Of a DNA stretch of 64,000 nt, positions 2,243 through 27,008 are shown piece after piece. This DNA is from a virus. The notes below the pieces were generated by a model that worked only from the letters and a program-made list of their open reading frames with translations, ran no database searches and was not told the origin of the DNA. The stretch is taken from positions 1 through 64,000 of IMG/VR virus record IMGVR_UViG_3300009157_000003; one strand, 5' to 3'. Within the stretch, counting starts at the first letter, position 1. Every line of letters begins with the position of its first letter. The position numbers and the translations under genes are program-made.

Positions 2243-2506
2243 CTAGGCCCGGCGCCCGAGCCCAAAGTAGACCTGACGCTCCCAGGTCCGGATGAGTACA
2301 TTGCCGTCCTCCGGCTCGACGTAGTACTGGCCGTTCGAGAGGATGATGTAAACGCGACGGTCGGCGAAGTCCTGCCGGGCGCGCTCCCGGGCGATCGCCT
2401 CCGTGGCGAAGCCCTTATGTTGATTCGCCGGGGGCTGGCTCTCAGCGAGCTTTGCCATGTCCTGACTGAATTGCTTTTGATCGGCGGGTGTGCGTTCGAT
2501 GCTCAT
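2243..2506 (-). CDS. hypothetical protein, 87 aa
   Basis: ATG at 2506 has a clear GGAGAGG ribbon of purines about ten bases upstream on the - strand, which decides this start over longer frames. The first 50 residues look helical and charged. The last 35 (RVYIILSNGQYYVEPEDG) look like a small beta-sheet domain. It ends just before the terminator at 2208-2233. Function unknown. Confidence 0.65.
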   Translation of the reverse strand: MSIERTPADQKQFSQDMAKLAESQPPANQHKGFATEAIARERARQDFADRRVYIILSNGQYYVEPEDGNVLIRTWERQVYFGLGRRA

Positions 2507-2768
2507 TGTGTGTGTCCTCTCCTGGGCTGACGTCCATCCGAAGGTGTAGCGCGAACTGGTGGAAGGCGTCCACGAGTCCGCCAGTGAAGAGCACAGCCCC
2601 ACTTCCATCCGGGCGGTAGCTCCAAACCTCGAAGACGCCCGGGGCGGTCTCCGTGGCCTGATACCCGGCGAAGGGTGGCGTTGGTATCCGTGGCGCATAC
2701 GCGATCCCCAATCGAAGATTGAGGGGCGTTATGGGGCACGGATGAAGCTGCACGTGTACTGAGTCCAT
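2442..2768 (-). CDS. hypothetical protein, 108 aa, overlapping the next gene
   Basis: The frame opens at 2768 behind a purine run (AAAGGGGA), about 40 bases after a near-consensus promoter. Residues 25-80 (for example GVFEVWSYRPDGSGAVLF) look like real protein. The last 20 or so residues are Arg/His-rich and overlap the start of the 2506 gene by 65 bases, an unusually long overlap here, so the true 3' end is suspect. A frameshift or misread stop is possible. Confidence 0.45.
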   Translation of the reverse strand: MDSVHVQLHPCPITPLNLRLGIAYAPRIPTPPFAGYQATETAPGVFEVWSYRPDGSGAVLFTGGLVDAFHQFALHLRMDVSPGEDTHNEHRTHTRRSKAIQSGHGKAR

Positions 2769-2802
2769 CCCGTTGGGATCCCCTTTCAGTTGTCAAAGAC
2801 CA

Positions 2803-2882
2803 CGATCACACTATTGTAGTGCAAGGGGCGTGCCGCTGTCAAGCCCCTGGAAAGTCCCGGTAATTCTCGATCACAGAATTGT
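2803..2882. repeat. direct repeats CGATCACANNATTGT flanking a leftward promoter
   Basis: CGATCACA-N2-ATTGT occurs at 2803-2817 and again at 2868-2882, 65 bases (about six helical turns) apart. The left copy covers the -10 box of the leftward promoter and runs into a small palindrome (CACTATTGTAGTG, 2809-2821). This layout suits a repressor acting from two sites. Confidence 0.55.
2813..2842 (-). promoter_or_regulatory. sigma-70-type leftward promoter
   Basis: On the - strand a perfect TTGACA (2837-2842) is followed after 18 bases by TACAAT (2813-2818). Transcription would begin near 2806 and give a leader of about 38 bases before the ATG at 2768. The -10 box overlaps a 13-base palindrome and one of two direct repeats, so repression is likely. 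The rest of the gap 2769-2956 shows no gene. Confidence 0.7.
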
Positions 2883-2956
2883 CTGTCAGCCTGGGGGCAG
2901 ACCAATGTCTACTAGTCAGACTCGCGATCCGCACTAACTCGAATTGGCTCTATGAG

Positions 2957-3928
2957 TTAATTGGCAGCGGGTGGGGCGGGTTTCCGCCAGTGTCCACGGG
3001 CGGGGCTCTCGATCTCCCCCCGCTTTTGTAACAGTCCGAGACGGCGGAAGAGGGTCGGGCGGCTGATCGCCTCTTGCCCCTGGGTGAACCGGAGGATCAA
3101 GGCGGCGGAGCTTGCGTGCGCTGGCGCCGGAGGGATCACGTCGAGGATGCGCTTCGTGGTGTCGTCGTGCTCCAGATTGAGGTCGAGGTCGGGGTCCGCC
3201 GGGACGCCGTCCGCCAGTCCATCGAAGAGCCCATACTTATTCTTCCGGAGGTTGAAGGTTTGCGCGGGGGCGTGATGAGGATTCCAGTGGAACTGGTAGA
3301 AGTTGGTCCCGCTCTCGTCGGGGGACATCAAGTACATCTGCGTGCCGGTGTACCCCAACTGGGCGGTAGACCCGTTGATCCGATCCTGGGGCCGGGCGTA
3401 GCGATCGCCTTTGTCCGCCTTTTGTTTGGAGGCGTGCGCGATCCCAACGAGGCAATAGCGTTGTTCGAGCGCGTAGCGGTGGATCTCGATGCACGCAATG
3501 GCGGAGGTGTCGTAGTCGTTCAGGCTCCCCCCGAGAAACAGGGCAATCGGATCCACGAAGATGAGCGAGCCCGGCGGGAGGGTGAGCTTCCCGATACATT
3601 CCCGGAGGAGCTTGGTGCGGTCGAGCTTCTTGCGAATCTTGGACGTGTGCAGGGTGTGATCATCCACGATGGAGTACTGCGGGATGTCCGCGTACCCGAC
3701 CTGGGAGAACCATTGGAGCGAGTCGGCCCAGGGGCGATCGGCGGTGATGTACCCAATCGCCGGAGGGGGGTTGCAGGCGTACCCGAGGATCTCGTGCCCA
3801 TCACGAAAGCGCGTCGCCATGCCCGCGACGAAGGCCGTCTTGCCGACACCGGATGCACCGGCGATGAGATTGAGGGATCCGAGGGTGAGAATTCTGGGGA
3901 GGGGATCGAGGAGGGTCGCATCAGGCAC
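2957..3928 (-). CDS. RepA-like RecA-fold ATPase, probable replication helicase or initiator
   Basis: The 323-residue product has a Walker A motif (GASGVGKT, residues 24-31) and a Walker B strand (LIFVDP, 122-127). A later HASKQ...RINGSTAQLG segment resembles RepA/AAA_25 hexameric helicases. The C-terminal 60 residues look like a winged helix (TLFRRLGLLQKRGEIES), which could bind DNA. Start is GTG 3928 with GGAG six bases upstream. That GGAG lies in an RNA structure described separately. A promoter at 4037-4065 feeds the gene with a leader of about 100 bases. It is the only leftward gene in this replication region. It could be a loader rather than the helicase itself. Confidence 0.7.
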   Translation of the reverse strand: MPDATLLDPLPRILTLGSLNLIAGASGVGKTAFVAGMATRFRDGHEILGYACNPPPAIGYITADRPWADSLQWFSQVGYADIPQYSIVDDHTLHTSKIRKKLDRTKLLRECIGKLTLPPGSLIFVDPIALFLGGSLNDYDTSAIACIEIHRYALEQRYCLVGIAHASKQKADKGDRYARPQDRINGSTAQLGYTGTQMYLMSPDESGTNFYQFHWNPHHAPAQTFNLRKNKYGLFDGLADGVPADPDLDLNLEHDDTTKRILDVIPPAPAHASSAALILRFTQGQEAISRPTLFRRLGLLQKRGEIESPARGHWRKPAPPAAN

Positions 3929-3986
3929 GGGAGTCTCCGGACCGCCCGCGGGCGCCGGGCTGGAGACTCCCTCGCAGCCCGGCGCC
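3929..3986 (-). promoter_or_regulatory. pseudoknot-forming leader that covers the ribosome-binding site of the RepA-like gene
   Basis: In the leftward mRNA a perfect 12-bp GC-rich stem forms between 3986-3975 and 3962-3951. Its 12-base loop contains GGGAGTCTC, complementary over 9 bases to GAGACTCCC (3937-3929), which covers most of the GGAG ribosome-binding site just before GTG 3928. The same bases can also form a simple 10-bp hairpin (3971-3962 with 3938-3929). The pairing is seen directly. Control of translation is inferred, by analogy with pseudoknot-controlled rep genes of IncB-type plasmids. Confidence 0.6.
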
Positions 3987-4036
3987 GCGCAGATTCACGC
4001 TGTCAGGGCGCGACCCCGATCAACGACGGCCCGGGG

Positions 4037-4065
4037 AGTGTAGGCCCGTACAGGATTGTCGTCAA
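4037..4065 (-). promoter_or_regulatory. sigma-70-type promoter for the RepA-like gene
   Basis: On the - strand TTGACG (4060-4065) is followed after 17 bases by TACACT (4037-4042). Transcription would start near 4030, giving a leader of about 100 bases that includes the structured region 3929-3986. Confidence 0.65.
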
Positions 4066-4099
4066 CCCCTCTATATGGGGGCGAACAAACGGCACGCCA

Positions 4100-4140
4100 C
4101 CATACAAAATTGCCGCTTGACAGGTTGAGAACCTGTATGG
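4100..4140. repeat. nested inverted repeats between divergent promoters
   Basis: CCATACA (4100-4106) pairs with TGTATGG (4134-4140). Inside it, CAGGTT-GAG-AACCTG (4121-4135) is a perfect 6-bp palindrome that overlaps the end of a TTGACA (4117-4122). No good -10 follows that TTGACA, so this is better read as an operator serving the divergent promoters on either side. Confidence 0.5.
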
Positions 4141-4195
4141 AACACTGCGCCCTTCCGCGGAGATGCGGAGGTTGTTCGCTGCGTTGGCTAATAGC

Positions 4196-6921: not shown

Positions 6922-7338
6922 ATGGGGCTCGTCGGCGGCCCCCGGCACCACGGCACCGGCCCGAAGCCGCTCCCGTGGAAGTGTCCCGCCTGTCAGGCGG
7001 AGAACGTCGGGGTCATGGAAGAGGGGTGTAACGCCTGCGGGGCGAACACCGCCGCCACGAATGCCCGCGCGCAGAAGGGGAACCGGCCAGTGGAGCCGAA
7101 GATCCCCGTCGAGCGCATCGCGGCCCAGGTCGTCGCGGATAAGGATATCGACCCGGGGTGGTTCCTGAAGCTCGCGTTCCTGACCCCGCAGGCGAAGACC
7201 ACGATCGCCGTCGCGCTCCTGCGGTACGCCGAGTCGATCACCGCGACGACGTCAGAAGAACTCCCGCGAGGGATTGTGCTCGCGTGGGGCGAGTTGCTCC
7301 AACGTGAGCTTGGATTAGTCGAAGGAGATGAACCGTGA
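6922..7338 (+). CDS. protein with N-terminal zinc ribbon, 138 aa
   Basis: CPACQAEN near residue 21 and CNACG near residue 36 form a RanBP2 or rubredoxin-like zinc knuckle. A helical domain follows. It starts immediately after the previous stop and its TGA overlaps the ATPase start at 7335, so it is probably co-translated with the ATPase and may be its partner. That link is inferred from gene order only. Confidence 0.6.
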   Translation: MGLVGGPRHHGTGPKPLPWKCPACQAENVGVMEEGCNACGANTAATNARAQKGNRPVEPKIPVERIAAQVVADKDIDPGWFLKLAFLTPQAKTTIAVALLRYAESITATTSEELPRGIVLAWGELLQRELGLVEGDEP

Positions 7339-9008
7339 CCCAGACTGAGACCCCGCCTGCGGCGCCCGCCGCGGCCCCCGATGCCGTCGTGAACTCCGCC
7401 ACGCTCCTGATGGGCGCCACGACGTCCGGCAAGACCTCCCTGATCGTGACAATGGCGGAGTACGTATACGAGACATTCGGGATGATCACCCGCCTCTACA
7501 GTATCGACGGGGGCGGGTTCCCGACCCAAATGCAGGCGGCGATCAACGCGGGGATCGTCCAGGTGTGGCGCGTCCGCACCCGGAGCGGCCAGGGGCTCGC
7601 GTTCGAGACCTGCCAGCGGGTGAGCCAGGGGTACTGGCCGCGGCGAATCAACCCGAAGACGGGCGAGACCGATCCCAACGTCCAGTTGGTCCCCCCGGTG
7701 ACGCAGCGCTTCAAGATGTTCTGTCCCAACGGGCACCTACTCCGGGACGTCCCGACGGCGATGCTCCTCGCCCCGATCGTGTGCGCGCAGTGTACCAACC
7801 TGCTAGTCAACCCGACGAACATGGTCGTGCAGCAGGAGAGCTACCGCACGAAGGGCTTTGAGAACATCGGCGCCATCGCAATCGACTCGGCGACGTCGAT
7901 GGGCGGCTGGATGATGATCGACCTCTCGCACCGCACCGACCTCGGCGGCGAGAAGGGCAACATGGCGAACGTGAACTCCGGGGACATGGTCTGGTCCGCG
8001 AACAACCGCGCGCAGTTCGGCTTTGTCCAGAACCGGATTGAGGAGTTGGTCCATAACTCCCTGTCGATCCCCGGGCTGGTCGTCCCGCCCCTCTGGACGG
8101 CGCTCACGAACGACGCGACCGACGAGGGGGGGTTGAGCATTCGCGGCCCGGCGATCGCCCCCGGACAGGCGAAGAACGGGGTCGCCCCGCAGTGGTTTGG
8201 GAACTGTCTGGAGATCACGAGCGAGGTCCGGGACAACGTCAAGTACCGCCAGATGCGCCTGCATGAGTACATCGACAAGCAGGGGGTGCGACACCTGTGC
8301 AAGGTCCGCGCCTACCCGGGCACGATGCCGGCCATCATGGAGGATATCGACGCGCCCGACCAGCCTGCTTTCGTCAACTTCAACCTCGGGGCGTTCTACA
8401 AGCTCCTGAAGCAGTCCCAGGCCGCGACGGAGAAGGGGTACGCGGCACGGTTCGAGAGCGTCCCGGGCACGCCGGATGGGATCGTGGAGTTCGGCGAGCC
8501 GAATGACGTCCGGGCCGTGCCTGCGGCGGCACCTGCCAGCCCGCGGGCGGTGGGACCTCGTCCGACCCCCAAGGCGCCCGTGCAGGCGGCGAAGCCTGCG
8601 GCGGCGGCTCCGGCGCCCTCAGTACCACCACCGGCCACCGCGGCCCCGGCGGTAGCCTCTACTGCCCCGGTACCTGCGACTACCGGAGTGGCCGCTGGGG
8701 CGCCGGTGACGCCGCCCAAGCCCGTTCAGGCCGCGGCCAAGCCCTCGACGACCCCAGTGACCGCCAAGGCCCCGAGTGCGCCCGCTCCGGCGGCCGCACG
8801 ACCGGCGGCGGCGGCGCCTCCAGCACCGGCGTCCGCCCCCAAGGCGCCCGTCGCGACGCCCGCCGCGGCACGGCCGACGGCGTCACCCTCTCCGGCCGCG
8901 ACGGGACCGCGTCCCGCGGCGCCACCCGCATCCCCTGGCCCGGCCCGTGGTCCGGCCGCGCCTCCGGGACGTCGTCCGGCTCCGCCTGCGGCGCCGGTGA
9001 AGCCGTAG
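7335..9008 (+). CDS. Sak4-like RecA-fold ATPase with long Ala/Pro-rich tail
   Basis: Walker A is GATTSGKT (27-34) and Walker B is the IGAIAIDS strand (178-185). This is the size and layout of AAA_24-type phage ATPases, some of which (Sak4) help single-strand annealing. Cys130, His134, Cys150 and Cys153 make a zinc-binding insert between the two motifs. From about residue 395 to 557 the protein is almost only Ala, Pro, Lys and Thr, a disordered linker not usual for the family. It lies directly upstream of a possible SSB, which supports a recombination or replication role. Confidence 0.7.
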   Translation: MTQTETPPAAPAAAPDAVVNSATLLMGATTSGKTSLIVTMAEYVYETFGMITRLYSIDGGGFPTQMQAAINAGIVQVWRVRTRSGQGLAFETCQRVSQGYWPRRINPKTGETDPNVQLVPPVTQRFKMFCPNGHLLRDVPTAMLLAPIVCAQCTNLLVNPTNMVVQQESYRTKGFENIGAIAIDSATSMGGWMMIDLSHRTDLGGEKGNMANVNSGDMVWSANNRAQFGFVQNRIEELVHNSLSIPGLVVPPLWTALTNDATDEGGLSIRGPAIAPGQAKNGVAPQWFGNCLEITSEVRDNVKYRQMRLHEYIDKQGVRHLCKVRAYPGTMPAIMEDIDAPDQPAFVNFNLGAFYKLLKQSQAATEKGYAARFESVPGTPDGIVEFGEPNDVRAVPAAAPASPRAVGPRPTPKAPVQAAKPAAAAPAPSVPPPATAAPAVASTAPVPATTGVAAGAPVTPPKPVQAAAKPSTTPVTAKAPSAPAPAAARPAAAAPPAPASAPKAPVATPAAARPTASPSPAATGPRPAAPPASPGPARGPAAPPGRRPAPPAAPVKP

Positions 9009-13320: not shown

Positions 13321-15024
13321 ATGACGATCAACCTCAATCACCTGTCGGATGACACCGGGCTCGTGACCGTCGAGGCCCCGGGCGGGGTGTCGCCGTCGTT
13401 CAAGAAGATCGGCGGGATGAGCTTTGCGCCGCGGATGGGGCGGCGGCGCGATGATCCCTCCCTGGTGCAGGAACAGCGCGATGCGGCGGTCGAGGCGATG
13501 GCGGACGCGATCCTGCCGCTCTTACAAGAAGACGACCCGCCTGTCGCCGACGTCGTCACGGACATCATCACGGCCGGACGGGCGTTGGCGCCGGACGCGC
13601 CGGACCTGACGGTCGAGGAGGTCTCCGATGCTCTCTCCCCTGGAATGGCCGTTGACGATGCTCCTGAGCCTGTGGTCTCGGTGGTGGACCCGACGCTCAT
13701 CGACGTCGAGATCCCCGACGATCTCCTCCACGAACAATCCTTCCTCTGCGGCCCCGCCGGGACGGGGAAGACGGTGATGGCGCGATCGTGGGTCCGGCAG
13801 TACCCCGGTACGATCCTCGCGGCCACGACGGGGATCGCGGCGGTGAACCTGGGCGAGGGATCGACGATCAACAGCCTGTTGGGGTACTTCGACACGGATA
13901 GCTTGCGCGAGATGTACACGAGCGGGCATCTCCAGGCGCGGCTGGGGAAACTCTGGCGCGCGGGCATCCGCCGGATCCTCCTCGACGAAGTCTCGATGAT
14001 GGATGGGGAGCAGTTGACGATCCTCACCCGGGCGCTCGGGGAGTTAGCAGGACGCGGCATGCTCGTCGATGCGGATCTCGCAGAAGAGATGCAGGCGTGG
14101 AAGAAGCAGGAGGGCAAGGATCCGATCGCCCTCACCCTCATTGGAGATTTTGCCCAGCTACCGCCGGTGCGAGCGAGCTTCGCATTCGAGAGCCCCCTCT
14201 GGGACCTGTACGCCCGCCACACGCACAAGCTCACCGAGATCCGTCGTCAGGCTGATCGCGCGTTCATTGAAGCGCTCCAGGCCGCCCGGCGGGGGGATGG
14301 CGACGCGGTCGTCCAGTTCTTCGGCCCGCGGCTCAATCGCACGACCGACGATAACTTCGACGGCACCACGATCTTCGCGAAGAACGATGCGGTCGCGCGG
14401 TACAACCAACTCCGGATGGATCGCCTGAAGACCCCGCTCCAGAGCTATTCGGCGGCGCGGTGGGGGGAGCAGCGCACCGACTGGAAGCACATTCCCGACG
14501 TGCTACACCTGAAGGAAGGCGCGCTGGTGATGGTCCTGGCGAACGCGCGCGAGATCGCCGGAGCGAATGGCCTGCCCGGACGGATCATCTACGCGAATGG
14601 GGACCTGGGGACGATCGTCAGCGCCGATGATGGCCCGCGGGTCGTGGTGGAGTTGAAGCGCAACGGGCGACGGCAGATCATCGACTGGATTGTGCGGGAG
14701 AACACGATCCCGCTCGCACCCGGCCGCCGGAAGGAACTGACGAACGAGGGGAACGAGCACCTGATCAAGGATCGGTTTGAGGTCATCGGCACGGTGACGT
14801 ACCTCCCGCTCCGGCTGGCGTACGCGACGACGGTGCATAAGAGCCAGGGCCTCACCCTCGACAATGTCCAGGTGAACACCGGCGAAGGCATGTTCCAGAC
14901 GCCGGGCTTGCTCTACGTCGCGCTGTCACGCGCTCGCACCGCCGACGGGCTCCGATTGATTGGGAGTCCGGTTGGGCTGAAACAACGGTGTACGGTGCAC
15001 GGGAAAGTGAAGCCGTACCTCTAA
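13321..15024 (+). CDS. SF1B DNA helicase, Pif1/RecD2/Dda-like
   Basis: Walker A GPAGTGKT is at 144-151, motif II LLDEVS at 220-225, motif III GDFAQLPP at 275-282, and the conserved HKSQG of motif V at 506-510, in the order of Pif1/RecD helicases that move 5' to 3' on single strands. The first 130 residues precede the helicase core and begin with MTINLNHLSDD, a peptide shared with two other proteins here. It probably acts at replication forks or in recombination with the Sak4-like ATPase. Confidence 0.85.
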   Translation: MTINLNHLSDDTGLVTVEAPGGVSPSFKKIGGMSFAPRMGRRRDDPSLVQEQRDAAVEAMADAILPLLQEDDPPVADVVTDIITAGRALAPDAPDLTVEEVSDALSPGMAVDDAPEPVVSVVDPTLIDVEIPDDLLHEQSFLCGPAGTGKTVMARSWVRQYPGTILAATTGIAAVNLGEGSTINSLLGYFDTDSLREMYTSGHLQARLGKLWRAGIRRILLDEVSMMDGEQLTILTRALGELAGRGMLVDADLAEEMQAWKKQEGKDPIALTLIGDFAQLPPVRASFAFESPLWDLYARHTHKLTEIRRQADRAFIEALQAARRGDGDAVVQFFGPRLNRTTDDNFDGTTIFAKNDAVARYNQLRMDRLKTPLQSYSAARWGEQRTDWKHIPDVLHLKEGALVMVLANAREIAGANGLPGRIIYANGDLGTIVSADDGPRVVVELKRNGRRQIIDWIVRENTIPLAPGRRKELTNEGNEHLIKDRFEVIGTVTYLPLRLAYATTVHKSQGLTLDNVQVNTGEGMFQTPGLLYVALSRARTADGLRLIGSPVGLKQRCTVHGKVKPYL

Positions 15025-21155: not shown

Positions 21156-21460
21156 ACCTCGATCATCTCTCCGACGACCCGCATCTCGACGCGGCGAAGA
21201 TCGCGCTCGAACAGCGGGAGGTTGATGACTACGTGAACTATCTCACCGGACTGCTGGAGGATGACTACTGTACGTTCGCCGCGGACACGCTGACGGGGAT
21301 CCGCGAGGCGATCAAGGAGCGCCGGGTGATTACCTTCCCCCAGCGCGTCGCCGTGCAGAACATCAAGGACGCGGCGGATCGCAAGCGGCAGGACGAGGGC
21401 CGGAAGGTCGATCACGCCCGGCCCTACCGACGTCGGTACGAAGGGTGGGAACGTCGATGA
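21152..21460 (+). CDS. helical protein with LDHLSDD N-terminal peptide, 102 aa
   Basis: Opens with MNLDHLSDDPHLDAAK, matching the start of the helicase (LNHLSDD) and of the 9043 protein (LNHLS). The remainder is helical with a very basic C-terminus (RPYRRRYEGWERR), suggesting nucleic-acid contact. The shared peptide suggests a replication-complex partner. ATG 21152 is decided by the ATGA overlap. Confidence 0.6.
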   Translation: MNLDHLSDDPHLDAAKIALEQREVDDYVNYLTGLLEDDYCTFAADTLTGIREAIKERRVITFPQRVAVQNIKDAADRKRQDEGRKVDHARPYRRRYEGWERR

Positions 21461-22389
21461 CGGGGTTCATCGCGTGGGAAGGGGCGTCGCTCCTCACCCG
21501 TGACGTCCCGCTCGTCGTCATCGTGACCGGCGAGAGCACGAACACGAAGACCGGGCCGATGTGGCAAAGCTGGATCCTGCGGAGTGACCTGCACCCGGTG
21601 ACCGCGGTGAACACCCGGCAGGACGGGGCGATCTGCGGCCAGTGCGTCCATCGGGGCTATCAGGAGCGTGCACGAAGCTGCTACGTGAATGTCGCCTGGG
21701 CACCGGCGGCGGTCTATCGGAGCTATAAGGAAGGGAAGTACGCCCGTGGCTGGCAGGTCGCGGACTGGCCGCCGCCGAATGGGCGCGCGCTCCGCATGGG
21801 CGCGTACGGCGACCCGGCGGCCGTGCCCTACGACGTCTGGAAGCTCCTCGCCTACTGGGCGGGCGCCTGGACCGGCTACACCCACCAGTGGCGCGTCTGC
21901 GATCAGCGCCTCGCACGCTTCTGCATGGCCTCGGTAGACTCCCGCGAGGAGTACTTCGAAGCCCTCAAACTCGGCTGGCGGACCTTCCGCGTCCGCACCC
22001 CTGATCAACCGGCGGAACCCCATGAAATCATCTGTCCGGCCTCGGAAGAAGCGGGCCACGCCACAACCTGCGCGCAGTGCCTCCTCTGCTCCGGCACGAC
22101 CCGACCGCGCGCCACGAACATCGTCATCCAGACGCACGGATCCCGCGGGGCCGCCTTCTTCGAAACGCGGCAGCCCTCCTTGCTTGACGATCGCGGACCG
22201 GTTCTGGGCGAAGGTGAAGTTCCCCGACGACCCGAACGGGTGTTGGGAGTGGATCGGCGGGTACAACACCCCGGCGAAACGCCCGTGGAAGGGGACGCGC
22301 AGGCCGATCTTATTTTTGAGGATGACCGGGGGGCGGCGGGGACGCCGGGAAGTGGTGTACGCGACCCGGATCGCGCTGGCGATCTATGA
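21457..22389 (+). CDS. conserved phage protein of unknown function with Cys clusters; 3' part overlaps an HNH gene
   Basis: The first ~235 residues look like a known widespread phage family (VVIVTGESTNTKTGPMWQSW near the start, CGQCVHRG, and CPASEEAGHATTCAQCLLCSG near residues 190-210). Cys pairs suggest metal binding. From about 22170 to the stop at 22389 this frame reads through the HNH gene and is Arg/Gly/Asp-rich, so that tail is probably not native. ATG 21457 is chosen by overlap with the upstream stop. Confidence 0.6.
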   Translation: MTGFIAWEGASLLTRDVPLVVIVTGESTNTKTGPMWQSWILRSDLHPVTAVNTRQDGAICGQCVHRGYQERARSCYVNVAWAPAAVYRSYKEGKYARGWQVADWPPPNGRALRMGAYGDPAAVPYDVWKLLAYWAGAWTGYTHQWRVCDQRLARFCMASVDSREEYFEALKLGWRTFRVRTPDQPAEPHEIICPASEEAGHATTCAQCLLCSGTTRPRATNIVIQTHGSRGAAFFETRQPSLLDDRGPVLGEGEVPRRPERVLGVDRRVQHPGETPVEGDAQADLIFEDDRGAAGTPGSGVRDPDRAGDL

Positions 22390-22651
22390 CGGCGTCCCGC
22401 TCACCGCGCGCGTGGGCCTGGAAGCCTGCCACATTAAAGAATGCTCCAACACGCGGTGCGTCCGGTGGGATCACCTGTACTGGGGCAGTCCCGCGAGCAA
22501 TCGGTACGACCGGTACGGGTACACCCAGGCACGATTGAGTTTAGAGGACCTCCGTGGCGAAGCAACCAAAGCAGAAACCGGGGACGTCGGAGCAGGTGGT
22601 AGTGACCCCGGACCTGTTCCTGACGGCCGTCCGGACACGATTGGGGATTGA
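22022..22651 (+). CDS. HNH endonuclease, probable homing endonuclease
   Basis: The core, roughly 22190-22550, has RFWAKVKFPDDPNGCWEW and then ACHIKECSNTRCVRWDHLYWG, the zinc and HNH motif of free-standing phage homing endonucleases. The ORF opens at ATG 22022, but the first 54 residues are Arg/Ser/Pro-rich and overlie the real end of the 21457 gene. A TTG at 22184 is an alternative start without a ribosome-binding site. The last ~33 residues overlie the methyltransferase. The enzyme nicks or cuts DNA to copy its own gene into intronless or HNH-less alleles. Confidence 0.75.
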   Translation: MKSSVRPRKKRATPQPARSASSAPARPDRAPRTSSSRRTDPAGPPSSKRGSPPCLTIADRFWAKVKFPDDPNGCWEWIGGYNTPAKRPWKGTRRPILFLRMTGGRRGRREVVYATRIALAIYDGVPLTARVGLEACHIKECSNTRCVRWDHLYWGSPASNRYDRYGYTQARLSLEDLRGEATKAETGDVGAGGSDPGPVPDGRPDTIGD

Positions 22652-23048
22652 GGAGTTTGTGCTCGACTGCGCGGCGGATGAGCACAATACCAAGGCGCCC
22701 CTCTACTGGGGCGTCGAACACAATGCGCTGGTGCAGCCGTGGGATCTCGGAGAGGGGTGGAACTGGTGCAACCCGCCGTACGCGAAGATCAAGCCGTGGG
22801 TCAAGAAGGCGCACGAGGAGATGCGCCTCGGCGTGAAGACGGCGATGCTCCTGCCCGCAGGGGTCGGCGCGAATTGGTACCGTCAGTACGTACACATGGA
22901 AGCGCCCGTCCTCGCGCTCAACGGGCGCCTCACCTTCGTCGGGCATCCGACGCCGTACCCGAAGGACATGATCCTCATCTTGTGGGATGACACCTGGGCG
23001 TCCGCGCGACAGAGTCACTTCGACGTCTGGACCTGGAATGCCCCCTAA
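22554..23048 (+). CDS. phage N-6-adenine DNA methyltransferase (Dam-type), 164 aa
   Basis: GTG 22554 has GAGGA seven bases upstream. The catalytic NPPY is at 73-76 within NWCNPPYAKIKPWVKK, and FVLDCAAD (35-42) is the SAM-loop region, as in the Dam_phage family of about 170 residues. It probably methylates adenine in phage DNA to evade restriction. It overlaps the DNA polymerase start by 11 bases. Confidence 0.85.
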   Translation: MAKQPKQKPGTSEQVVVTPDLFLTAVRTRLGIEEFVLDCAADEHNTKAPLYWGVEHNALVQPWDLGEGWNWCNPPYAKIKPWVKKAHEEMRLGVKTAMLLPAGVGANWYRQYVHMEAPVLALNGRLTFVGHPTPYPKDMILILWDDTWASARQSHFDVWTWNAP

Positions 23049-25116
23049 ACCCCTCGGCCCGGGCGCCAAGAAGCCCCGCGTCTACACGCCCCGGCATCTC
23101 AAGCCGACGTGTGACAGCCCCTGCCAGGGGTGTGCCCTCGAATACCGCGGGGGGAAGGGTATTGTCCCGAGCTATCGTGGCTCGCCGGATGCGAACGTGC
23201 TGTTGTGGGGAGAAGCCCCCTGGCACGACGAGGCGATCAACGGGGAACCCTTCGCGGGCGCCGCCGGGTCGATGCTCACCCGTGTGCTAAGACTGATCGG
23301 CAAACAGCGTGAGCACTTCCGCATCGACAACCTGATCCGGTGTGTCGTCCCGGACATGGAGATTGAGAAGTTCCCCGGCGCGGTCACCACCTGTCAGTAC
23401 CGGACGCAGGAGTTAGATCAGGACCCGCCCAAAGTGCTCCTGACGATGGGCACCGTCCCCCTCCGCCACGTGATGAACCTCCCGCGGAAGAAGAATCACA
23501 CGATCGAGACCTTCCACGGGACGGTGTCACGCGACCCGACCGATCGCTTCTGGATCACGCACACCTTTCACCCGAGCTTTCTCCAGCGCGGGGCGACCAA
23601 CATGATGGGGGTGATGGCGTTTGACATCGCCCGGGCGCTCGACGTCGCGGAGCACGGGTGGGCACCAGACCCCGGCGTCATCGTAGTCGATCCACCACCG
23701 GACTGGCTCCGCGTCTGGGCGGCGGCGTACGTGGCGGCGGTACGGCGCGACGGGCCGTACGCGTACCCCCTGGCGGCGGACATCGAGACGCCGGATAAAG
23801 GCGCCGACGAGGGGATCATCCTGGCGAGTGGCGCGGATCACAGCTATCAGATTAACCGGGTCAATCTGAGTTGTCACCCGGACGAAGGGGTGACGTTCCC
23901 GTTCGAGTACCCGTACACCGAGATCCTCGCGGAGATCCTCGCCGCGATGGGCGTGCAGTACTTCTGGTTCAAGGGGTACGACTTCCCCCGGTTGGCGGCC
24001 GCCGGGATGCCGATGAATCCGCGGCTGGCCTGGGACTGCATGTGGATGTGGAAGGCGCTCCAGAGTGACCTCCCGATGGGCCTGGGATTCGCCGCGCCGT
24101 TCTATTCGAAGTTCGGGGCGTGGAAGCACCTGTCGGAGAGTCAGCCCGGGTTCTACGGTGGGGTCGATGGGTTGCAGACCCGCCGGGTGGGCGACGGCTG
24201 CGTGGGCGATCTGGTGAGCCAGGGCCAGTGGCACGTCTTCGAGCGCCACATGCACGACTTCCACCGGACCGCGCTCCAGCCCGCGACCGACGTCGGGATC
24301 TTCATCGATCGCGATCGGCTCAATACCTTCGGCGGCGAGATGGCGGCGAAGGCCACGGATCTGCTGAATCAGATTCAGGAGACGATCCCCGACGCACTCC
24401 TCCCGCTAACCGGCGGCGCGAAGAACGAGGGGCTGACGCGCCCGCCGACCGCGACGGAGCACACGAAGGCGCGATCCACGAAGCAGGACGGCACCGAGAA
24501 GAAGCACGCGCCCGACCCGATCAAAGCGGAGTTGTTCAAGCGGGCGGTCGTGGTGGAGAAGCTCGTGCTCCGGCAGGTCCTCGCCTGTCGAAACTGCGGC
24601 CTCACTGAGGTGACGACGAAGCACCGGTGCAAGATCCCCGGCGACCCGCGCGTGGAGTTGACCGCCGCGACCGTCCGCCGCTGGTTCTGGAAGGAACCCT
24701 TCAATCCCGATAGTCACGATCAACTGATGAGCTTCGTCACCCACAAGGGGTATCAGCCCGGGAAGTCCAAGCAGACGGGCAATCCCTCGGTGGATCGCGA
24801 CACGCTCTCTCGGCTGTTGCGCGAGACGAAGGATCCCTTCTTCCAACATCTCCTCGACTACAAAGCCGTGATCAAGGTGAAGGTGCAGTACGTCGATGGG
24901 ACGCTGCGGAGGTTGGATGCGGAGGATCGCGTCCACCCGCAGACCACCTTCAAGCCCAACACGATGCGGACCAGTCAGGTGAATCCGAATTGGCAGAACG
25001 TAAGAGCGGACAAGGACGGGAAGAAGTCGATCGCCGCCGGGTTCCGGCATTGTGTGGTCGCCAGAGGCGCGTGGGTCGAGGAAGGGAGTGGGTGGGAAGA
25101 TGGCACCGCCGACTAG
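23038..25116 (+). CDS. DNA polymerase A, N-terminal part: UDG-like domain + 3'-5' exonuclease + thumb
   Basis: Residues 1-200 match a family 4 uracil-DNA glycosylase: CxxC at 29/32 and Cys102-x16-Cys119 for a 4Fe-4S cluster, GEAPWHDE (58-65), GEPFAGAAG (69-77) and HPS near 179. ADIET at 247-251 (Asp248, Glu250) is exonuclease motif I. NPNWQN (649-654) is the conserved family A segment before motif A. The reading frame then ends after VVARGAWVEE in a short unmatched tail that overlies the NADAR start. Motifs A, B and C are absent; they are in the gene at 25914. Start ATG 23038 overlaps the methyltransferase stop. Confidence 0.8.
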   Translation: MPPKPLGPGAKKPRVYTPRHLKPTCDSPCQGCALEYRGGKGIVPSYRGSPDANVLLWGEAPWHDEAINGEPFAGAAGSMLTRVLRLIGKQREHFRIDNLIRCVVPDMEIEKFPGAVTTCQYRTQELDQDPPKVLLTMGTVPLRHVMNLPRKKNHTIETFHGTVSRDPTDRFWITHTFHPSFLQRGATNMMGVMAFDIARALDVAEHGWAPDPGVIVVDPPPDWLRVWAAAYVAAVRRDGPYAYPLAADIETPDKGADEGIILASGADHSYQINRVNLSCHPDEGVTFPFEYPYTEILAEILAAMGVQYFWFKGYDFPRLAAAGMPMNPRLAWDCMWMWKALQSDLPMGLGFAAPFYSKFGAWKHLSESQPGFYGGVDGLQTRRVGDGCVGDLVSQGQWHVFERHMHDFHRTALQPATDVGIFIDRDRLNTFGGEMAAKATDLLNQIQETIPDALLPLTGGAKNEGLTRPPTATEHTKARSTKQDGTEKKHAPDPIKAELFKRAVVVEKLVLRQVLACRNCGLTEVTTKHRCKIPGDPRVELTAATVRRWFWKEPFNPDSHDQLMSFVTHKGYQPGKSKQTGNPSVDRDTLSRLLRETKDPFFQHLLDYKAVIKVKVQYVDGTLRRLDAEDRVHPQTTFKPNTMRTSQVNPNWQNVRADKDGKKSIAAGFRHCVVARGAWVEEGSGWEDGTAD

Positions 25117-25558
25117 TCCGATTCGGAGCTTCACCGGCGAATACCGGTTCCTGTCGAATTTCTACCCGTACCGGGTGATCTACGACGGCATGGAGTACCC
25201 CACCGTCGAGCATGCGTACCAAGCGGCGAAGTCCTTTGACATCCGGCATCGGCTTCACATTCAGGCCGCCCGGCGGGGGGCGATCGCCAAGGCGATGGGG
25301 CGGAAGGTGCTCCTCCGCGAAGACTGGGAGACCGTGAAGATTCCGATCATGCGCGAGCTATTAGTGTACAAGTTCGCGGACAAGAACCTGCGCGGGCCGC
25401 TCGTCCGCACCGCCCCGCGGGAACTCATTGAGGGCAACTGGTGGGGGGATCGGTTCTGGGGGGTCTCGAACGGGGAGGGAGAGAATCATCTGGGCAAGCT
25501 CCTGATGGAGATCCGGGGTGAGATCCTCGCCTCGGGGATTGTGAAGGCGATCTCATGA
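25100..25558 (+). CDS. NADAR-domain (YbiA-like) protein between the two polymerase genes
   Basis: A complete 152-residue NADAR fold: EYRFLSNFYPYRVIYDGMEYPTVEHAYQ at the start, then KSFD, and GNWWGDRFWGVSNGEGENHLGKLLM at the end, with the conserved Glu, Trp and Gly positions. NADAR enzymes cleave N-glycosidic bonds of riboflavin precursors or ADP-ribose on guanine, and phage NADARs such as AdfN counter DarTG. ATG 25100 lies within the last codons of the upstream polymerase gene; its stop overlaps 25555. Confidence 0.8.
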   Translation: MAPPTSPIRSFTGEYRFLSNFYPYRVIYDGMEYPTVEHAYQAAKSFDIRHRLHIQAARRGAIAKAMGRKVLLREDWETVKIPIMRELLVYKFADKNLRGPLVRTAPRELIEGNWWGDRFWGVSNGEGENHLGKLLMEIRGEILASGIVKAIS

Positions 25559-25914
25559 CCGTCCGTGAGTACTTCCGCCAACTCCGCCGTGAGCAGTGGG
25601 AGCTTGATAAGGGGTTCTCCAGTCGGGTACACGACATCTTCCCGCCATCGAAGATGATGATCTCCTTCTGTGGGGATCGCGATCCGTTTGAACCGGGGCT
25701 GTCGGCGGAGCCCTTTCTCGGGTTGGGGGCGGCGGTCCGCGTGCAGTTCCGGTGTCTCGCGTTCTACGCGCTCCACCGGGACGTCCTCATTGGCCTCGTC
25801 CGAATCGCCGAGATCGTCGAGGTCGAACAGGAGCTTTCCCCCGACGCGGCGGTCGAAGCACTCCAGGCAGCATTCGCGGAACGGAGTCGGCGACTGAAGG
25901 GGGTCGTGGACTAG
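25555..25914 (+). CDS. hypothetical protein, 119 aa, between NADAR and the polymerase C part
   Basis: ATG 25555 overlaps the NADAR stop, and its TAG shares a base with the GTG of the polymerase C gene, so it couples the two. It begins with a basic helix (TVREYFRQLRREQWELDK) and ends with charged helices. The middle looks like a small alpha/beta fold. Unknown function. Confidence 0.55.
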   Translation: MTVREYFRQLRREQWELDKGFSSRVHDIFPPSKMMISFCGDRDPFEPGLSAEPFLGLGAAVRVQFRCLAFYALHRDVLIGLVRIAEIVEVEQELSPDAAVEALQAAFAERSRRLKGVVD

Positions 25915-27008
25915 TGGCCGCGGTCTGGGCGAGCGCGAAGATCCTCGAATTCGACTACGCGGGGATCGAACAAGTCCTGATGGGCTGGTTCTTCCAGTCC
26001 GCCCGGTACATCCGCATCGCCAAGCTCGGCACGCACGCGATCGTCGCCTCGACGGTGTTGCACCGGCAGACGCCGCGGATCTGGTCCCCGGCCGACCTCT
26101 CGCTCCCCGATAAAGAGATCGCCGCGTACCTGAAGACGATCAAGAAGACGGAGGATGAAGCGGTCGGCCTCGTGTACGATCAGTGCAAGCGCACGGTGCA
26201 CGGGACGGCGTACGGTCTGACGACACACGGCATGGTCCGGAATTTCCCGACGATCTTCCCCACGCTCAAAGTGGCGGAGGAGACGCAGCGGATCTACTTC
26301 GACGTCGCCCCGGAGGTCCCGGAGTTTCACACGTCGGTGCGCCATACCGCGCATCAGCAGAAGTACCTCGGCGGCGCGGCGACGTACCAGTACCTCCCCG
26401 CCGAGCGGAAGGTGATCGGTCATCCCTATGGGTACAAACTCTGGCTCTGGTCCGTTGTCGCGTACGAACGGCTCAACCCCGGCCAACTCCTCTGGCGACA
26501 GAAGCGCAAGCTCCCCACGATCGAGATCAATGGGATCTGGTACGGGATCACCCTCGGGGAGGACGCCAAACGTGCTGCGGCGTTCTACCCCCAAGGGACC
26601 GCACGAGGCGTACTCACAGATGCCTGTTTCCCCCTCTTTGACCCGGAGGATCCTCTCGCCGAATCCTGTTATATCGGCGACTGCTATTTCGGCCGCACTC
26701 CGCTACGCGCGCCGATTCATGATTCCCTCTTAATCGAAGCGCCGACCCGGATGGTCGATCGGATCATCGAGCGCGTCTGCCGGGCGATGATGCGGCCGAT
26801 CGACGCGATGCCGTGCCCGCCGGAGTGGGGGATGGGCGAGTACCTCACCGTCGGGGTGGACGGGAAGATCGGCGCCGACTGGGGCTCGATGGTCGGGCTC
26901 GACCTGCCCCGGTACGAGGACTTAGAGATTGCGAGCGACAGCCCGTACACCCCCGCGGAGGACGAAGACGAGGATGACGTCCTGGATCTGGAAACGAGGA
27001 TTGCATGA
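25914..27008 (+). CDS. DNA polymerase A, C-terminal part: palm and fingers
   Basis: Starts at GTG 25914 (TAGTG). Motif A is LEFDYAGIEQ with Asp14 and Glu19. Motif B is KRTVHGTAYG (92-101). Motif C is IHDS with His269 and Asp270; HDE is usual, so Ser271 is a change. The sequence begins where the upstream gene stops, so the two polypeptides together make a whole family A polymerase. The C-terminus is acidic. The frame continues to 27008 and overlaps the next ATG. Confidence 0.8.
   Translation: MAAVWASAKILEFDYAGIEQVLMGWFFQSARYIRIAKLGTHAIVASTVLHRQTPRIWSPADLSLPDKEIAAYLKTIKKTEDEAVGLVYDQCKRTVHGTAYGLTTHGMVRNFPTIFPTLKVAEETQRIYFDVAPEVPEFHTSVRHTAHQQKYLGGAATYQYLPAERKVIGHPYGYKLWLWSVVAYERLNPGQLLWRQKRKLPTIEINGIWYGITLGEDAKRAAAFYPQGTARGVLTDACFPLFDPEDPLAESCYIGDCYFGRTPLRAPIHDSLLIEAPTRMVDRIIERVCRAMMRPIDAMPCPPEWGMGEYLTVGVDGKIGADWGSMVGLDLPRYEDLEIASDSPYTPAEDEDEDDVLDLETRIA

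Follow-up and report, generated by a model that had tools for sequence, protein, structure and literature searches.

Does a phage whose family A DNA polymerase gene is cut in two, with unrelated genes in the gap, still make a working enzyme? A locus in the viral record IMGVR_UViG_3300009157_000003 raises this question. We analyzed bases 1 to 64,000 of this 70,775-base record (the window). At 23038-27008, an upstream gene (PolN) and a downstream gene (PolC) together encode a family A polymerase, and between them lie a NADAR gene and an open reading frame (ORF) called orf119. An earlier note on this DNA had proposed that two genes encode the polymerase and that two unrelated genes separate them, and all of its coordinates held when compared with the ORFs and with Pfam and PHROG matches. 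From the gene structure, the conservation of motifs, the same split in relatives, and the lack of a detectable intron, we infer that the halves are very likely two separately made polypeptides. We put a probability of about 0.8 on a working two-subunit family A polymerase formed from separately translated, coupled halves. The four genes are as follows.

23038-25116, plus strand: PolN, 692 residues, with a UDG-like domain, a DnaQ-like 3'-5' exonuclease, a thumb, and an initial palm segment (up to ...FRHCVVA), followed by the split-specific tail RGAWVEEGSGWEDGTAD
25100-25558, plus strand: NADAR gene between the polymerase halves, starting within the 3' end of PolN (Pfam NADAR, E = 2e-23; phrog_1017, E = 4e-43)
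25555-25914, plus strand: orf119, 119 codons, an orphan and the second gene of the cassette
25914-27008, plus strand: PolC, 364 residues, with the remaining palm and the fingers, including motifs A, B, and C; its GTG start overlaps the orf119 stop (TAGTG)

Successive genes in this list overlap by 17, 4, and 1 nucleotides, which agrees with the earlier description of the NADAR and 119-residue genes as coupled by overlap. The PolN start overlaps the 3' end of the gene for a Dam-type methyltransferase (22554-23048), with an alternative in-frame ATG at 22987, and the PolC stop overlaps the next gene, at 27005. Therefore, the stretch from PolN to PolC looks like one transcription unit with coupled genes. 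Because all of the genes sit in one run of overlapping frames, translation of each half would probably be coupled through them.

Both halves matched phrog_17. PolN matched Pfam UDG (residues 48 to 187, E = 7e-15) and the N-terminal part of DNA_pol_A (residues 552 to 676, E = 1e-12), and its N terminus was also matched by family-4 UDGs in the PDB. PolC matched later parts of DNA_pol_A. In PolN, exonuclease residues D248, E250, D315, and D377 and polymerase residue R644 were invariant among the relatives aligned. An alignment of 16 sequences showed the same for PolC residues Asp14 and Glu19 of motif A, which the earlier note had already named, for Lys92, Tyr100, and Gly101 of the motif B region, and for His269-Asp270 of motif C. 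(Motif names follow those of Klenow-type polymerases.) The DNA_pol_A match and the presence of motifs A, B, and C with the catalytic Asp/Glu/Asp residues place the predicted product in family A. An AlphaFold2 (AF2) model of PolC alone had a predicted local distance difference test score (pLDDT) of 88.5 and a predicted template modeling score (pTM) of 0.83, which indicates foldability only. PolC and intact relatives also share a conserved acidic C-terminal tail, EDEDDVLDLE (window positions 26950-27005), which is perhaps a partner-binding peptide.

To place the break, we sought relatives in 2.9 million viral contigs (IMG/VR) and found about 30 distinct ones, mostly 40 to 61% identical to PolC. 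In all but two, L008 and L067, the polymerase is a single open frame (L002, L003, L005-L007, L010-L031, L063-L066, and L068-L070, some with inteins). The intein-like inserts are in frame, are roughly 250 to 350 residues long, and lie at three sites: the UDG domain (L018 and L020), the exonuclease (L023), and motif B (L028). In intact proteins, VVA is typically separated from the motif A strand by seven residues (KRSSWMM-EFDY in L002). At the window junction, PolN ends VVA-RGAW... and the PolC head reads ...WASAKIL-EFDY, each half being extended. Because these sequences stand at the two ends, nothing is lost at the junction. Alignment with complete polymerases, the check that the earlier note had proposed, confirmed that no residue is missing and that the two frames jointly cover the intact protein. 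One detail needed correction. Rather than ending at VVARGAW, PolN continues for another 13 residues, VEEGSGWEDGTAD. This tail is not junk, because L008 has it too.

We also mapped the break onto an AF2 model of the intact L002 polymerase (pLDDT, 84; pTM, 0.82), for which the best PDB matches were Klenow, Bst, and Taq (E about 1e-20). By our residue mapping, the break falls in a three-residue loop (662 to 664) of a palm beta-hairpin, between strands 659-660 and 665-672. This loop and the aligned intact relatives put it just before motif A, where it had been placed from the DNA. The intact L027 polymerase has a 21-residue linker here, DQEIPAWAGQAPGLVGGSRLL. Its first half resembles the L067 tail and its second half resembles PolC heads, and we read this long linker as a possible state from which splitting is easy.

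The two other split genomes break at the same point as the window. In L008 (contig 3300043313_002478) there is no insert, and the halves overlap out of frame. Its PolN ends in ...CVVARGMWVEAGSGWEDEDVVAE and a stop (shorter excerpt, ...VVARGMWVEAGSGWEDEDVVAE and a stop), and its PolC starts at an ATG behind GGGAGG, in the other frame and overlapping PolN, MSSPNSAPAVWASAKLLEFDF. The extensions of the window halves, RGAWVEEGSGWED and AAVWASAKILEFDY, match those of L008. L067 (3300049846_002234) is a distant relative in a different clade. Its PolN ends in ...ATDEIPEWAKGMTPEELGEYV and a stop, its PolC starts MSSAPAVWTRSHLIEIDF, and the 2.3-kb gap between them has genes for HNH and NADAR proteins along with several small ORFs. 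The split has thus been kept in more than one genome during evolution. A search for further members of the split clade with a signature DNA pattern and the clade alignment returned L008 again and nothing else, and cellular genomes gave none. The search for close phage relatives in GenBank gave none for PolC and weak partial matches only for PolN. The preference for a two-subunit rather than a broken polymerase, already expressed in the earlier note, is supported by L008 (split without an insert), by L067 (split around other genes), and by the unrelated phages MEP401 and QDWS535, which are split likewise (see below).

Could the polymerase nevertheless be broken and decaying, with one or both halves as remnants or with PolN kept for its UDG and exonuclease domains? 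Gene breaks are usually inactivating, and PolC alone scores 24.8 bits against Pfam DNA_pol_A, below the curated cut-off of 34.3. However, PolC is conserved like its intact relatives and keeps all motif residues, and L008 and L067 retain both halves open despite long divergence. The proportion of nonsynonymous differences (pN) was about half that of synonymous differences (pS) at saturating distances, giving pN/pS below 1 for both PolN and PolC. PolC also evolved no faster than intact relatives (0.27 for the window end branch versus 0.45 for the L002/L003 stem). Both halves are under constraint, because pN is about half of pS and the window PolC has no long branch. Furthermore, the record yielded no other DNA polymerase: neither a second family A polymerase nor one of family B or C was found in its 70.8 kb. 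We consider decay quite unlikely.

The earlier note had raised an intron as the alternative. The gap would then be a self-splicing group I or group II intron carrying the NADAR gene and orf119, and a spliced mRNA would yield one polymerase. Phages SPO1, Bastille, and phiL7 are known to carry introns in their family A polymerase genes (cited in PMC10580990), and the window has an HNH gene close to the locus. However, no Rfam intron family matched the gap of the window or that of L067, even at E ≤ 10, although a ribozyme outside Rfam is formally possible. Two overlapping ORFs fill the 797 bases that separate PolN from PolC, the L008 split has no gap and leaves no room for an intron, and the L067 gap contains ordinary genes. 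Two of the gaps are operon sized, at 2.3 kb (L067) and 3.6 kb (MW202796, see below). An intron is therefore disfavored, and we regard it as very unlikely. In the 64-kb window as a whole, no Rfam family reached threshold, and no tRNA was found.

Programmed ribosomal frameshifting or trans-splicing by a split intein might also join the halves. A +1 shift is conceivable in L008, where they overlap out of frame, but at least two genes separate them in the window and in L067, and a shift cannot join those. As for inteins, the L018, L020, L023, and L028 polymerases carry intein-like inserts. Unlike in those four, inspection by eye of the split ends revealed neither a Cys- or Ser-led block following VVA nor HN(C/S/T) ahead of motif A. 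Joining by either route is most improbable. Finally, the window is a single metagenome contig, so a sequencing or assembly error might have split one frame. However, the same break position and homologous tails recur in two independent contigs, L008 and L067, and a base-call error does not produce an 800-bp insert with two genes. The chance of such an error is negligible.

Under a two-subunit arrangement, the phage DNA would be replicated by a family A polymerase built from the PolN and PolC polypeptides. The UDG-like domain, the exonuclease for proofreading, the thumb, and the initial strands of the palm would come from PolN, whereas the fingers and the remaining palm, with motifs A, B, and C, would come from PolC. 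The halves would re-associate through pairing of the palm hairpin strands on either side of the break, so that R644 of PolN meets Asp14 and Asp270 of PolC in one active site. The split would have arisen in an ancestor with a lengthened hairpin loop.

Several points weigh against this reading or complicate its history. The window contig is a single metagenomic assembly. The PolC Shine-Dalgarno signal is weak, and its start codon is GTG. The trees also conflict. In the PolN tree, the window groups with L008 (95/80), whereas the PolC tree groups it with the intact L002 and L003 (97/88), and L067 sits in a separate clade, paired with the intact L065 at 99 to 100. This pattern would call for at least two fissions at one place, for lateral transfer of the split region, or for re-fusion in L002 and L003. 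Of these, lateral transfer is hinted at by SAPAVW, a PolC head that is shared.

Three further features bear on how the genes in the gap arrived.

25111-25117, no strand: left copy of the direct repeat GACTAGT, which includes the PolN stop codon
25909-25915, no strand: right copy of GACTAGT, which overlaps the orf119 stop and the PolC start
22022-22651, plus strand: HNH endonuclease gene upstream of PolN, a possible agent of past mobility

GACTAGT occurs only twice in the window, at 25111 and 25909. If one copy and the 791 intervening bases are removed, PolN ...GAC TAG shares its last base with the PolC GTG, and the halves are directly coupled. The chance of a 7-bp match so near both junctions was about 0.03 by resampling, with a range of 0.03 to 0.32 by the width allowed. 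The repeat as a trace of cassette entry is suggestive only. In L067, there were no flanking repeats beyond chance. The start region of L008 PolC, GGGAGGATGAAGATG, aligns by eye with the start of the window NADAR gene, GGGAAGATGGCA, as if NADAR had taken over a pre-existing initiation site. Because GACTAGT flanks the cassette at the PolN stop and the PolC start, we infer that fission probably came first. The NADAR-orf119 cassette would later have entered the PolN/PolC boundary of an already split gene, harming neither half. A probable insertion after the split goes beyond what the earlier note had envisaged.

The NADAR domain scored 84 bits against a cut-off of 35.1, and the protein is predicted to belong to the NADAR/YbiA-like ADP-ribosyl-guanine hydrolase family. 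NADAR enzymes, including phage ones in vitro, strip ADP-ribose off guanine, and it has been proposed that they protect phage DNA (PMC11125620). In the polymerase group, 4 of about 31 records have a NADAR gene (the window, L067, L010, and L024), always inside the polymerase gene or within about 2.5 kb of it. Those of L010 (3531-3968) and L024 (1537-2040) are just 5' of intact polymerases. It is a reasonable guess that NADAR is linked to replicating an ADP-ribosylated template. No shared cassette origin emerged for the NADAR genes of the window and L067, because either gene matches others at least as closely as it matches its counterpart. For orf119, no family or relative was found in viral contigs, phages, genomes of the polymerase relatives, or GTDB genomes. 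It is an open frame with G+C fractions of 0.71, 0.41, and 0.78 at the three codon positions.

The earlier note had recognized the HNH gene at 22022, which ends about 0.4 kb before PolN, and its matches to PHROG HNH families bear this out. Each of the three split genomes has an HNH gene of this kind beside or within its polymerase locus, as does (at E < 1e-5) only 1 of 27 intact records, L065. This distribution fits endonuclease-driven exchange, which may have operated here, but the independent cases are few. In L065, the HNH gene (about 3686-4150) has an in-frame TGA and lies just before the intact polymerase; the closest relative of L065 is the split L067. Fission caused by a homing endonuclease, of the Aeh1 nrdA/mobE type, would place an endonuclease gene in the gap; the window gap holds only NADAR and orf119, and an HNH gene is in the gap solely in L067. 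Upstream, the HNH gene is preceded and overlapped by a gene (21445-22389) with a strong match to phrog_2554 (function unknown) and a weak match to DUF7227. Farther upstream in the same record is a Dda-like helicase gene (13321-15024).

If both halves are needed and assemble, then the Klenow/Taq fold, studied as a single chain, has a natural two-subunit form. The break point, inside the palm and beside the catalytic aspartate, would have been used repeatedly and would offer a ready-made site for split-polymerase design. The locus would also show how a phage gene can be divided without being lost and can later take up cargo at the break. For gene callers and polA-based virus surveys, there is a caution: either half may pass for a fragment.

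Several known systems invite comparison. SPO1-type polymerases (phrog_17) have an N-terminal UDG-like domain and belong to the same PHROG family as the window halves. The SPO1 polymerase gene has a group I intron and one protein product, whereas the window encodes two proteins. In phage Aeh1, NrdA is in pieces after insertion of mobE, and the split enzyme is active (PMC2988022). Like the window polymerase, it is an essential phage enzyme whose gene is in pieces, but it is a ribonucleotide reductase with a homing endonuclease inside the gap; the window gap lacks an endonuclease, and the L067 gap has one. The gp43 polymerases of the Aeromonas T4-like phages 25 and 44RR (43A and 43B) are replicative polymerases in two polypeptides with an inserted sequence between, in one case a homing endonuclease gene, and the halves of phage 25 gp43 copurify and polymerize (PMC2988022). 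These are family B polymerases, however.

Among family A polymerases, no split case of the window type turned up in publications on N4-like CB1 phages, MQM1, ZC phages, and DpoZ. (In MQM1, an HNH gene is said to interrupt the polymerase, and an intron is suspected.) The OM43 phages MEP401 and MEP402 (Zobellviridae) and most of their group have been reported to have a split family A polymerase whose halves flank a small ORF, and the authors considered an intron (PMC10580990). MEP401 breaks at the structural point seen in the window (...NLQNFDGEIKTLFLSRYGE and a stop, then MILNADAKALEW), and MW202697, MW202796, and Alcaligenes phage QDWS535 also break before motif A. Like the window, these MEP401-type phages have two genes, and the break follows the ...NLQN...F(L/V)SR(Y/F) strand, immediately ahead of motif A. 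They differ in that tblastn found no sequence kinship with the window, their PolN lacks a UDG domain, and the MEP401 gap lacks NADAR. Their gaps vary, from a 1-nucleotide overlap (QDWS535) to one small ORF (MEP401) to 3.6 kb of genes (MW202796). QDWS535 (OK172329) is a sequenced isolate with two adjacent annotated family A polymerase genes, 1311-2501 and 2501-3226. The MW202796 halves are on the minus strand at 7333-8493 and 3024-3734, and the genes between include one for a cytosine methyltransferase. Because the MEP401-type cases include cultured phages, the split arrangement is viable. Together, L008, L067, MEP401, QDWS535, and MW202796 form a series of gaps from zero to 3.6 kb in which the order of fission and insertion can be studied.

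A split polymerase is therefore not in itself unprecedented, and the window adds a new, independent case in the UDG-fused clade; what may be newer is that the site before motif A recurs. We see even chances that phage family A polymerases have repeatedly undergone fission in the palm beta-hairpin loop just ahead of motif A. On that proposal, at least two groups without tblastn similarity (the UDG-fused clade, possibly twice, and MEP401/QDWS535) would independently have become true two-subunit enzymes, and the boundary would then have served as an insertion site for replication-linked or counter-defense genes such as NADAR.

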